This document shows, one piece after another, positions 58,047 through 62,655 of a stretch of 64,000 bases of DNA (within the stretch, counting starts at the first letter, position 1; each line of letters opens with the position of its first letter). This stretch comes from Anaerolineales bacterium. GTDB lineage: Bacteria > Chloroflexota > Anaerolineae > Anaerolineales > Villigracilaceae. The notes under the pieces were generated by a model. That model had not been told where the DNA came from, did no database searches, and saw only the letters and a list, made by a program, of their open reading frames with translations. A program made the position numbers and the translations under genes. Location: NCBI GenBank assembly GCA_030583925.1, contig CP129482.1, forward strand, positions 868,001 to 932,000, given 5' to 3'.

Positions 58047-59558
58047 ATGGATAATCATCACGATGCCATCATCATCGGCGGGGGAGTGGCTGGACTCACC
58101 GCCGCCCTCCACCTCGCCGAGCGCGGACTCAAACCGTTGATCCTCGAAGCGGGTGAACGCGTGGGAGGCAGGCTTTCGGGGAAAGATGAAATCAATATCA
58201 ACGGGTGGATATTTCCAAACGAACACGGCGTGCATGGCGTCTGGTCTTCGTATGTGAATTTCAAATCCATGTTGCGACGGCATGGCGTCATTGATAAGTT
58301 GATTCCCGCAAACGACGAACAGTGGATTTATCGCAGCGGTAACTTCGTCGGGCGAGTGGGCATCGGCTCGATGATTCGCAACAGCCTGTTGCCCGCTCCG
58401 CTTCATTACCTGCCCTTGTTGTTTCACCCAAAATTTATGTGGATGCTCAGCCTCAGCGATTGGGCGTCGCTGTTCCATGTGTGGGGGACGATCCTCATGT
58501 CCATCGGCATTGATCCGTTTGTGGAAGACCAGCCGCTTGAAGGGCTGACGTTTGGAAAATCGCTCACGCCCTGGGGTCCCGCGTTCCGTGCGTTGTTTTT
58601 CGGTCTCACGCGCAACGGCTTGTCCACGAATCCCGACAATGTGCCGCTTGCGGGCTTCCTGGCATTCCTCCGTTTTTACACGGTCATGCGGCGCGACGCG
58701 TGGGCGTTCGAGTATCTTCCCAACGGCGGCGGCGACGTGTGCGAAAAATTGTCGGCGAAGATAACGCAATTCGGAGGCGCGATCAGGTTGAAGTCGCGCG
58801 TGAAGCGGATTGAAAAGGAGGGGGATTGGGTCGTGCAGTTTGAGTCGGATGGAATCCCCGCTTCGATTTGGTCCCGCTTCGTCATCCTCGCTTCAGACTC
58901 ACCTTCGGCTGAATCTATCATCCGCAACAGTTTCCCCGCCGACGGTTTGTTCTTCCCGCATGGGCTTGGTCACGCGGTGATTCGTTTGTGGTTCGGCAAA
59001 CAACCGCGCAAACATCCCGAGGCGGGGATTTTCAGCGGCGATTTTGTGATGCACAATTTTTTCTGGCTCGATAAAATTTATGACGCGTATCGCAAGTGGA
59101 GCGACGAGACTGGCGGCGCGTGCATTGAAGTGCATGTGTACGGACCTGAAAAAGCGTTGAATCAATTGGACGCCGTACTGCTGACCAATGTGTTGACTGA
59201 TTTTTATCGCGCCTTCCCCGAATTGAAGGGACATCTCATCAAGCCGCACGTGCAACGCAACGCCGCGACTCACACTCTGCCCGCGCTGGGCGCGCGCGGC
59301 ACGCATTTGGGAATCGAAACGCCGTGGGAAAATTTTTTCTGCGCGGGCGATTGGGTGAGGCATGAAACTCCCGCTTTCTTTTTGGAGCGCGCCTGCGTAA
59401 CAGGTCTCGAAGCTGCGAACCGCGTGTTATCTTTGCGCGGGAAAGAATCGTTCGACGTTCAACCGTATCCGCCCCCCGAACCGCTCGCGGCATGGATCGA
59501 AGCCGCGATGATGAGGGGTAGGAGAAAGAGGAGGCGGAGTTTAAAGAGTAATCAGTGA
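58047..59558 (+). CDS. FAD-dependent oxidoreductase (phytoene desaturase/carotenoid isomerase-like)
   Basis: 503 residues. The dinucleotide-binding site is AIIIGGGVAGLTAALHLAERGLKPLILEA, followed by ERVGGRL and, near the C-terminus, FFCAGDWV. Flavin amine oxidase/carotenoid desaturase family; substrate not determinable. No other carotenoid genes are near. The last residues SNQ and the stop come from the repeat at 59547-59596. Confidence 0.82.
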   Translation: MDNHHDAIIIGGGVAGLTAALHLAERGLKPLILEAGERVGGRLSGKDEININGWIFPNEHGVHGVWSSYVNFKSMLRRHGVIDKLIPANDEQWIYRSGNFVGRVGIGSMIRNSLLPAPLHYLPLLFHPKFMWMLSLSDWASLFHVWGTILMSIGIDPFVEDQPLEGLTFGKSLTPWGPAFRALFFGLTRNGLSTNPDNVPLAGFLAFLRFYTVMRRDAWAFEYLPNGGGDVCEKLSAKITQFGGAIRLKSRVKRIEKEGDWVVQFESDGIPASIWSRFVILASDSPSAESIIRNSFPADGLFFPHGLGHAVIRLWFGKQPRKHPEAGIFSGDFVMHNFFWLDKIYDAYRKWSDETGGACIEVHVYGPEKALNQLDAVLLTNVLTDFYRAFPELKGHLIKPHVQRNAATHTLPALGARGTHLGIETPWENFFCAGDWVRHETPAFFLERACVTGLEAANRVLSLRGKESFDVQPYPPPEPLAAWIEAAMMRGRRKRRRSLKSNQ

Positions 59559-59596
59559 ACAGTAATCAGTTTTACGGTGACTGATCACTGATTACT
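59547..59596. repeat. AGTAATCAGTGA inverted repeat closing two convergent genes
   Basis: AGTAATCAGTGA (59547-59558) and TCACTGATTACT (59585-59596), with an extra AGTAATCAGT inside. The TGA of the oxidoreductase gene is the end of the left arm. The TAA of kbl on the other strand lies in the right arm. Confidence 0.88.
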
Positions 59597-60773
59597 GAAT
59601 CACTCCGAGCTTCTTCCCAACCTTCGCGAACGCCTCCAATCCCTGACCCAAATCATCGCGGTCATGCGAGGCGGAGATCATCACGCGGATGCGCGCCTTG
59701 CCTTTCGCCACGGTGGGGAATCCGATGGACATGGCGAAGACTCCCTCCTCGAACAGTTCGCGGCTGAACTGTTGGGCGAGCGGCGCTTCGCCGAGCATCA
59801 CAGGCGTGATGGGAGTTTCGCTGACGCCCGTATCGAACCCGAGTTTCTTCATTTCCTCTTTGAAGTAACGCGCGTTGTCCCATAGTTTATCCACGAGTTC
59901 GGTTGATTCTTCGAGCAAGTCAACCGCCGCGAGACATGCCGCCGCGTCTGGCGCGGTGACAGCAGACGAGAACAAAAATGGGCGTCCGCGCTGACGCAGC
60001 CACTCGATGATCGTCTTGTTCCCCGCGACAATGCCACCCACCACGCCAAACGCCTTCGACATCGTGCCGACTTCGATGTCAATTTTTCCGTGCAAGCCGA
60101 AGTGATCCACGATGCCGCGCCCGCCTTTTCCCAAAACGCCTTCGCCGTGCGCGTCGTCCACCATCAACAAAATATCGTATTTCTGCGCGACCTCATACAA
60201 GGCGGGCAGTGGGGCGATGTCGCCGTCCATGCTGAAAACACCGTCGGTGATGATCAGGCTTCGGCGGTAGGATGAAGCGTGCTCTTTGATCGCGTCTTCC
60301 AATGCCCCCGCGTCGTTATGTTCGTACGCGACGATCTTTGCGCCCGAGAGTCGGCATCCGTCAATGATCGAAGCGTGATTCAATCGGTCAGAAAAGATCA
60401 CATCCTCTTTGCCGACCAACGCCGAGATCGCGCCGAGATTGGCGGTGAAGCCCGATTGAAACGTGATGACATCCTCCGCGCCTTTGAATTTTGCGAGCCG
60501 CTGTTCGAGTTGCACGTGCAGGTCGGTCGTGCCTGCGATCGTCCGCACGGCAGCGGGACCCACGCCGAATTTTTTCGTCGCCTCTTTCGCCGCCTCGACC
60601 AACTTCGGATGGTTCGCCAAACCCAAATAATTGTTCGAGCAAAAATTCAACACGTCCTTACCATCCACCACGAGCCGCGCGCCCTGCGCCGACCCGATCG
60701 TGCGGATGCGGTTGTACAATCCCTGCTCTTTCAATCCCTCAATTTCCTGCGTGAGCCAATCAATTTTTGACAT
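59592..60773 (-). CDS. kbl: Glycine C-acetyltransferase (2-amino-3-ketobutyrate CoA ligase)
   Basis: 393 residues of the alpha-oxoamine synthase family. PLP Lys240 in [38 protein letters not shown] and [11 protein letters not shown] are conserved. It splits 2-amino-3-ketobutyrate with CoA into glycine and acetyl-CoA in threonine breakdown; BioF and SPT-like homologues are related but Kbl fits best. The usual partner, threonine dehydrogenase, is not adjacent; the MDR dehydrogenase at 36944 is a possible but unproven candidate. Confidence 0.9.
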
Positions 60774-60797
60774 GGAGACTCCTTTATCATTTCATCG

Positions 60798-60938
60798 GTG
60801 GTCGAGTAGCCCTGAGCGAAGCGCAGCGGAGACGAAGGGCGTATCGAGACCACCAGTGTTCATGAAAATTTTTATTTGATTCTTGCGCGCTGGTCTCGAT
60901 ACGTCCCGCGAAGATCAGCGGGACTACTCGACCAGCGT
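60798..60938. repeat. Two inverted family F repeats (TGGTCTCGATACG/ACTACTCGACCA)
   Basis: Copy 1 (about 60798-60856) runs TGGTCGAGTAGCCC ... GGGCGTATCGAGACCACCA. Copy 2 (about 60886-60938) runs GCTGGTCTCGATACGTCCCGC ... GCGGGACTACTCGACCAGC. The stop codon of the next gene is the TAG in CTGGTCGAGTAG of copy 2. Related copies: 61291-61334 (inside the gene) and about 13687-13718 (L10 leader). Confidence 0.85.
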
Positions 60939-62609
60939 TTCAATCTCTGCAAACAACCCCAACTCGATCATCGCTTCCATCACTTTTTGGATGGCTCCGC
61001 TTTTGACGATGACCGCTGTGGGACTTAATACCTCGCCCAAAAATTTTCCCGCCCGTGACTTACGCATCTCTTCCAACACTTCGGGCTGACTCACCCGTAG
61101 GACGGTTTGAGTCTCCACCCGCGCCTCCGTGCCTTTGGCTTCCCAACGCTTCAGCGCTTTCACCAGCGGCGGCGGGACTTTGCCGTTCGTGTGCTTGACC
61201 AACAGCGAAAGCAGTTGCTCGGCTTTCAATCCCTGCTCTTTGGCATGCTTCAACGATTGCGCGGTGATTTGATATTTGTAATTATTACCTTTGGTCTCGA
61301 TACGTGGCGCGCTTTGCGCCACTACTCGACCAACGTGTTCCTCCCACTTACAAAATCTAGCAATCTGATAACGAACGACGCGCGGCGCATCGCGTGGAAT
61401 AATTATCTTCCCATTCGAGCCTATCCCAATCTTTCCTCTTTCCTCTTTCCTCGCCTCGAAAGAAGAAAGACGGAAAGCAGTCGGTTCTGTCGAGCCTTCC
61501 GCAAACGACAAATCCACTTGCCCCAGCCAATGAAGAACATTCACGAAGAATCGAATCAACGCGCCGTCCACTTCGCTCCACGAATCGAATCCGCGCAGAT
61601 ATTGCCCATCGGCGGCGCGTTTGATGAACCATGAGTCATAATCCCCCGCGGAGCGTTGAAAGTCGGCGTATTTCTGTTTGATGTCGCGGACGAGGGCATT
61701 GAGGCTCCACCATTTCCCTTCGGGGATTGCGTCGAGCAGGTTCAACAAAAATTCACGCGTCTCTTGCGGCTGGTTCGTCCATTCCCCTTCGCAGACGAGG
61801 CTCGGCATGAGTTTGAGTTCGTTGAATGAGTCGCTTTCCATCCATGCGGCGTGGAGCATCGTCAACGCGTCGGAGCGGGAGGCTTCGAGGAAATTTTTGA
61901 CTGCTTCGGTGTGGATTTCTCCCTCACCCGCTTCGACCAACTCAGCGCGGCGCCTAAACCCTCTGCCAGCGGGAGAGGGGGACAGTAGGCGCGCTGAGGA
62001 AAGTAATGCAACAAGTCGTTGGTCAAATTGCCAATTTGACTTACCCATTCGCAACGCGGCAAGCATCGTTGTGGCATCGTCGAGGATGGAATCGTCCGCG
62101 AGAATCTCTTTTCCCTTTTCGGCAGGAGAGGCGGGGCGACCAAGAGGTTCATTTTTTTGTAGGGACGACGCATGCGTCGTCCCTACAATTAATGGCAATA
62201 AATCATCAGGGATGTAAGCAAATTCCTGCGAGCCTTTATCCGTGTCGAAGAACGCCCGCGCCAATAAGCCGCGATAGAACAAAATCTCTGAGGTTGAAAT
62301 CGGATTGAGATGTGGCTTCTCTCGGTCGCGTTTGCCTGCTCCCATCTCGCGGATGTCGCCGAATTGACGCGTGAAAGTCGCCCAGGGGATGCGTCCGTTT
62401 GAGGCGCTGAGGGCGGCGAGAGCCGAGTCCGCTTTGGGGGGGAGAGAATCTAAAAGTTCGGCGAGCAGGTTGACGTCGAGGAGAGAAGCGGTTAGTTCAT
62501 CCCGCGCGGAATCGGCATCCGTAGAGTCCAATTCGAGTCCCCAAAAATCCGCAATGATGCGGAGGTGTCCGAGATCTTGTTTGGCGAGGGAATGTATTAA
62601 GTCGGGCAT
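60924..62609 (-). CDS. Helicase-associated (XPB/Ssl2 N-terminal-like) domain protein with three in-frame repeats
   Basis: 561 residues from ATG 62609 (a GTG two codons earlier is possible). The N-terminal part (HLRIIADFWGLELD, SALAALSASNGRIPWATFTRQFGDIREMGAGKRDREKP, FAYIPDDLLPLI) and the C-terminal KVMEAMIELGLFAEI match proteins annotated with a helicase-C-3/XPB N-terminal-like domain; no helicase motor motifs are present. Three repeats are translated within it: residues 142-150 (GTTHASSLQ), 211-217 (SPSPAGRG) and 426-440 (GRVVAQSAPRIETK). The stop codon is also in a repeat. Function unknown. Confidence 0.8.
   Translation of the reverse strand: MPDLIHSLAKQDLGHLRIIADFWGLELDSTDADSARDELTASLLDVNLLAELLDSLPPKADSALAALSASNGRIPWATFTRQFGDIREMGAGKRDREKPHLNPISTSEILFYRGLLARAFFDTDKGSQEFAYIPDDLLPLIVGTTHASSLQKNEPLGRPASPAEKGKEILADDSILDDATTMLAALRMGKSNWQFDQRLVALLSSARLLSPSPAGRGFRRRAELVEAGEGEIHTEAVKNFLEASRSDALTMLHAAWMESDSFNELKLMPSLVCEGEWTNQPQETREFLLNLLDAIPEGKWWSLNALVRDIKQKYADFQRSAGDYDSWFIKRAADGQYLRGFDSWSEVDGALIRFFVNVLHWLGQVDLSFAEGSTEPTAFRLSSFEARKEERGKIGIGSNGKIIIPRDAPRVVRYQIARFCKWEEHVGRVVAQSAPRIETKGNNYKYQITAQSLKHAKEQGLKAEQLLSLLVKHTNGKVPPPLVKALKRWEAKGTEARVETQTVLRVSQPEVLEEMRKSRAGKFLGEVLSPTAVIVKSGAIQKVMEAMIELGLFAEIETLVE
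61291..61334. repeat. Family F repeat inside the helicase-associated gene
   Basis: TTGGTCTCGATACGTGGCGC-GCTTT-GCGCCACTACTCGACCAACG, with the same ends as 60886-60938. In frame. Confidence 0.9.
61959..61979. repeat. CCTCTCCC-family repeat inside the helicase-associated gene
   Basis: CCCTCTGCC-AGC-GGGAGAGGG; one mismatch in the stem. In frame, translated as SPSPAGRG on the minus strand. Confidence 0.8.
62159..62186. repeat. 28-bp perfect palindrome inside the helicase-associated gene
   Basis: GTAGGGACGACGCA followed by its exact inverse TGCGTCGTCCCTAC. It belongs to the GTAGGGG family and is translated as VGTTHASSL in frame. Confidence 0.93.
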
Positions 62610-62611
62610 AT

Positions 62612-62655
62612 CCACTTTCCACTTTCTATATTCTACGGTAGAAAGTGGAAAGTGG
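62612..62655. repeat. 17-bp inverted repeat over the start region of the helicase-associated gene
   Basis: CCACTTTCCACTTTCTA (62612-62628) and TAGAAAGTGGAAAGTGG (62639-62655) pair perfectly around 10 bp. It supplies GGAAAGTGG, the only ribosome-site-like sequence before ATG 62609, and lies 8 bp from the stop of the lipid kinase gene. Confidence 0.88.

Follow-up and report, generated by a model that had tools for sequence, protein, structure and literature searches.

Variable linkers of a conserved helicase-associated gene in an Anaerolineales bacterium as probable tolerant slots for short dispersed repeats

Palindromic repeats inside genes have hitherto been treated as a curiosity of Rickettsia or as rare accidents of REP sequences. 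In the former case, the Rickettsia palindromic elements (RPE; Ogata 2000, 2002) are about 150 bp long according to a review (PMC10969869). For the GTAG-tagged REPs (Di Nocera 2013, PMC3733652), intragenic copies are known, the GTAG ends can supply TAG stop codons to open reading frames, REPs have been located inside repair genes, and different REPs have been found at about the same recB site in two Xanthomonas. A third point of reference is the intrastrand triplex motif TM/TMECO, which is reported to be always intergenic in E. coli MG1655 (Holder 2015, PMC4666352). Here we compare with these systems a gene lying in a window of 64,000 nucleotides (G000:C1:868001-932000) of an Anaerolineales genome that consists of a single 3.97 Mb contig.

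The host gene (60924-62609, minus strand) encodes a protein of 561 aa with a PF13625 (Helicase_C_3) domain when read from its conserved ATG start, or of 563 aa from the upstream GTG start used in the ORF listing, and it is longer than the span assigned to it in the earlier note. An orthologue search detects homologues in 146 of the 152 genomes of the family, and this conservation rules out that the gene is a pseudogene, an outcome in relatives that the earlier note had named as adverse to its reading. A PDB sequence search with the protein gave no match. Foldseek, run on its AlphaFold model (pLDDT 80, pTM 0.56), matches TFIIH p52/Tfb2 chains (8ebu_D, 7zs9_2, 6trs) with E-values down to 1.6e-10 and low TM-scores (0.2-0.3). 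A bacterial p52/Tfb2-like partner of XPB is a possible identity for the modelled protein. Low pLDDT is concentrated at residues 147-152, 215-228 and 427-439, which correspond to three of the variable linkers described below (slots A, B and C), so that the model predicts these slots to be loops of low confidence.

DNA alignment with five relatives and protein alignment of 30 orthologues reveal four such variable linkers, slots A to D, and the three repeat families that had been claimed to sit in frame inside the gene are indeed all in place. Slot A contains a perfect palindrome of the GTAGGG family that reads VGTTHASSLQ (62157-62188, minus strand); its core (GTAGGGACGACGCATGCGTCGTCCCTAC, 62159-62186, the GTAGGGAC palindrome) is the perfect 28-bp palindrome first described, which extends to 32 bp with its flanks. 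A GTAGGG palindrome occupies the same slot in two species of genus g26, and G018, whose protein is 88% identical, carries a GAAAGAG heptamer repeat there instead. Slot B contains a CCCTCTCCC/GGGAGAGGG motif that reads SPSPAGRG (61959-61979, minus strand) and whose sequence, CCCTCTGCCAGCGGGAGAGGG, has one mismatch to the CCCTCTCCC family; the motif recurs in G020 and G013, and the slot is empty in G018, G019 and G008. The third strand of this triplex-type motif (CCCTCACCC, 61921-61929, minus strand, reading GEGE) is separated from the arms by a nested insert (61930-61957, minus strand) that is 24 nt longer than the version in G020 and that forms, with 61982-61999, an imperfect inverted repeat (CTCAGCGCG..CGCGCTGAG) nested around the CCCTCTCCC motif. 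Slot C holds an in-frame hairpin (GRVVAQSAPRIET) of a family here termed F, with the structure TTGGTCTCGATAC-GTGGCGCGCTTTGCGCCAC-TACTCGACCAA (61291-61333, minus strand). Its core measures 19 nt here and 7 nt in G018, and the element is inverted in G020 and G008; by pattern, nine of the 30 orthologues carry F in one or the other orientation, and the slot is empty in others, such as G019, where F is absent. Slot D contains a (CTTTCCT)n heptamer repeat that reads KEERGK (61430-61453, minus strand), and a 7-base periodicity is apparent in this linker in 13 of the 30 orthologues. Part of the slots could descend from old shared insertions that have since decayed. In their heptamer periodicity, the slot A and slot D arrays may be akin to the short tandem heptamer repeats (STRR) of cyanobacteria, a possible lead. 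A further heptamer repeat, of the CAGTAATCAGT/ACTGATTACTG type and of the same kind as those in the linkers of relatives, adjoins an amine oxidoreductase gene elsewhere in the window (59556-59600). A 19-bp near-palindrome in the host gene (GTCAAATTGCCAATTTGAC, 62022-62040) was excluded as an insert, as its peptide is largely conserved in the orthologues.

Repeats also shape both ends of the gene. The CTA at 60924-60926, inside an F copy at 60890-60935 (minus strand) that is common to G018 and G020, provides the TAG stop of the gene, bearing out the proposal that its stop codon is repeat-derived. With a second, intergenic F copy in the opposite orientation (60797-60854, plus strand), it forms a REP-type dimer; at this second copy G020 has a different core between conserved flanks and G018 a different hairpin. 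Just upstream of the ATG, an inverted repeat with 17-bp arms (62612-62655) contributes the purine-rich AGAAAGTGGAAAGTGG, and a different repeat is found at this position in G018. The repeat origin proposed for this segment thus stands, and we infer that AGAAAGTGGAAAGTGG may serve as the ribosome site.

Family F numbers 41 copies genome-wide when the ends must match exactly and 44 when they are relaxed, against none for the reversed-pattern control, and copy numbers range from 44 to 100 in this genome and several relatives. Among the matches listed, it is present in Chloroflexota and Actinomycetota (e.g. Rathayibacter, Agromyces, Nocardioides). No relevant mention of the F sequence turned up in the papers searched. 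Two invariant ends, TGGTCTCGATAC and TACTCGACCA, whose constancy is due in part to the search pattern, enclose a highly variable, self-complementary core: at the first four variable positions, stem pairs are complementary in 80-98% of the 44 copies, when 39-55% would be expected. Pairing of the outer arms over many positions beyond TGGTC was considered and abandoned, covariation being confined to the base that precedes TGG (0.70 vs 0.30 expected). F-like elements were also observed nested inside the loop of another F copy (L139, L056, L021).

Several of these traits recall the GTAG-tagged REPs, and it is conceivable, if somewhat doubtful, that F is a REP family mobilized by a RAYT, its coding copies being occasional by-products of ordinary REP transposition. 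Read on the other strand, all F copies found by pattern have the form GAGTAG-stem-loop-stem-CGTATC, with GTAG beside the hairpin at its end; they are numerous and mostly intergenic, often form dimers (opposite-orientation pairs are many in G018), have alternative complementary stems and supply TAG stops, as described for GTAG-REPs (PMC3733652). Y1 transposases are present too, and two of those in this genome are flanked by palindromes, although by palindromes other than F. The four Y1 genes encoded here all lack flanking F copies, and among 32 Y1 loci scanned in the genus, three have a single F-like match nearby and a RAYT flanked by F was not found. Moreover, F stems appear to differ between copies far more than in the described GTAG-REP families (PMC3733652), unrelated families replace each other in slots, and whole F cores differ at orthologous loci between constant ends, which plain transposition does not provide. 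The Y1 loci have features of their own. One gene (L004 1263-2076; G000:C1:2305850-2306663) has seven palindromes around it that share a conserved GCAGTTGCACTGC-like core, while their outer arms vary yet stay complementary. Another (L003 1204-1845; G000:C1:2292816-2293457) is flanked by palindromes with core GGTCTGAGACC, a core also seen in many GTAGGGGC..GCCCCTAC copies, and this Y1 may serve the GTAGGGGC..GCCCCTAC family. A degenerate Y1 homologue (L288 1615-1896) contains a GTAGGGGC palindrome and has another close by.

The families differ markedly in how often they enter genes. Counts were drawn from sequence stretches around repeat copies, with genes taken not from an annotation but from a home-made coding model of fifth order, for which long ORFs served as the training set. 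On this basis, of 304 distinct F copies (this genome, G018, G015 and G021, plus single copies of others), 37 lie in genes, 14 at gene 3' ends and 253 in intergenic DNA; three genes of this genome end within an F copy. GTAGGG palindromes lie in genes in 5 of 35 cases, so that both families are strongly depleted in genes (12-14%) with respect to a coding fraction of about 87% (0.87 in the window). The loose GTAGGG pattern alone is unspecific (38 related palindromes genome-wide, vs 26 per strand for the reversed-pattern control), the complementarity of the arms being the specific trait. The CCCTCTCCC family, on the other hand, has 54 exact copies in the genome and none in the control, and 25 of 35 copies (71%) are genic. 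By sequence it is the TM motif, a candidate triplex, with the arms (CCCTCTCCC-GGGAGAGGG) and G-rich third strand (GGGTGAGG) given in Table 1 of PMC4666352; of 46 copies scanned, 37 have this third strand. Unlike TMECO, it is mostly genic. The host-gene copy departs from TM in its mismatch and in the nested insert preceding the third strand.

Frames within genes are far from random, in line with the expectation that a genome-wide count of frames would reveal an excess of coding-compatible ones. With orthologous genes merged, in-gene F has a single entry frame in 23 of 30 site-frame classes, when 0.41 is expected given the open frames (p=6.7e-5); in this frame GGT is a codon, and the reading is GLDT.. 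in one orientation and GRV.. in the other. The absence of the stop frame follows from gene calling, which excludes it, but the bias among open frames does not. The five genic GTAGGG copies all read GTA-GGG; for one of the five, support for the gene itself is weak. The arms of the CCCTCTCCC family have no stop codon in any frame, and its frames are spread 12/5/8. Pfam domains were detected in all 20 host genes scanned, which include GuaA, PyrD, UvrD, Mfd, ABC-F, EutA, ValRS, adenine deaminase, xanthine dehydrogenase, CinA and kynureninase, and alignments to structures identify the inserts as extra residues relative to solved homologues in GuaA, PyrD and a zinc ADH. Much as in the RPE, several palindromic, repeated families lie in frame in many unrelated, Pfam-confirmed protein genes, whose products would remain functional. 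The likeness is one of general description (PMC10969869); the repeats analyzed here are shorter (about 20-60 bp) and belong to another phylum, and different families occupy orthologous slots in different species.

This turnover was assessed by anchoring each copy on its two flanks and comparing it across species. A kynureninase slot has the CCCTCTCCC triplex-type motif here and F in G015; in the L069 gene, one slot carries GTAGGG in this genome but F in G018, and a second site carries CCCTCTCCC here and another palindrome in G018. In PyrD, two loops carry differing repeats among this genome, G018, G015 and G021, and where this genome has a loop with the GTAGGG palindrome, the three relatives have heptamer-like arrays, of two kinds, and a triplex-type motif. 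The resulting length differences are multiples of three in 15 of 17 genic comparisons, all outside the helicase gene and from about ten genes, vs 19 of 70 intergenic ones; the comparisons include reciprocal pairs and shared ancestry, which makes p-values overstate independence, and Fisher p=5e-6 is a guide only. The genic exceptions are L070/L206, close to a gene end, and L162/L241, with uncertain boundaries.

The host gene is real and conserved, and we consider it probable that its surface linkers provide tolerant slots in which short dispersed repeats turn over. At least four unrelated families (F, GTAGGG, the CCCTCTCCC triplex-type motif and heptamer arrays) insert both within genes and between them. 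The filter would be purifying selection on the host protein, with most genic F and GTAGGG copies being purged. The survivors would be copies in loops that keep the frame, lack a stop and are read in a frame whose peptide is polar and turn-like, while slot contents turn over, other species being empty or having a different family at the same slot. The depletion in genes indicates that most coding insertions appear to be lost, leaving peptides that the protein tolerates. Frame safety is hence real, and selection acting on the host protein explains it better than any choice of genes by the repeats; nothing found here supports the earlier note's proposal that the repeats themselves select frame-safe copies. 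Its description of the repeats as active agrees with the different slot contents of species whose flanks are about 70-96% identical, and falls short in that no mobilizing enzyme was found.

The frame bias might instead stem from site-specific insertion into a codon-phased target, with no contribution from the protein. As this explanation anticipates, the bias in entry phase appears whichever way the element points, the exit phase depends on core length and comes out roughly even, and both F ends begin with TGGTC. Nonetheless, cores come in all three length classes and genic differences stay multiples of three, for which selection is needed; the disfavoured frames are those that yield Trp (TGG) or Val-Ser-Ile, and the sequence outside TGGTC..GACCA has no fixed target. 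We therefore regard site-specific insertion as unlikely. It is more improbable still that coding copies are kept because they work as signals at the RNA or DNA level (terminators, or sites for gyrase or condensation): F is mostly intergenic and at times lies at or forms gene 3' ends, but slots switch family or become empty between close species, unlike a conserved signal. Chance resemblance of GC-rich, low-complexity linkers to repeats has next to no likelihood, for even though the linkers are variable and some matches short, the controls for F (41 vs 0) and the CCCTCTCCC palindrome (54 vs 0) and the perfection of the host-gene GTAGGG palindrome over 32 bp speak against it.

Beyond tolerant slots, the F family presents a further peculiarity. 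Among 36 orthologous pairs, each spanning two genomes, 21 have cores that are at most 0.62 identical (random-pair median 0.45) between flanks that are 70-96% identical, although these pairs were chosen for exact ends and the constancy of the ends is partly an artefact of selection. Of ten swapped cores between this genome and G018, seven have a copy with core identity above 0.9 elsewhere in the same genome, and the inner hairpin of one GTAGGG locus (L125/L290) differs likewise. The pattern fits dispersed repeats that would copy into each other, guided by their ends. We put forward, tentatively, that F may be a hairpin cassette in which TGGTCTCGATAC..TACTCGACCA guide the replacement of the whole core by one from elsewhere in the genome, perhaps through ectopic gene conversion or template switching; a deletion and a later insertion at that position would leave an identical pattern. 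If the cassette reading is true, repeats and their protein loops are rewritten in place, the insertion site being unmoved.

Three features are unusual: one repeat taking the place of another in a single slot, a mostly genic triplex motif, and F cores that differ at orthologous loci between constant ends. In a single genome, several unrelated families reside inside housekeeping enzymes, and the same loops are empty, filled or refilled in relatives, implying that repetitive DNA is repeatedly written into essential proteins, seemingly without disrupting them. By comparing orthologues one can thus test directly the idea that new protein loops arise from inserted repeats. A triplex motif inside genes and swappable F cores are new to repeat biology, and the difference between families (12-14% vs 71% in genes) points to what makes repeats tolerable in coding DNA.
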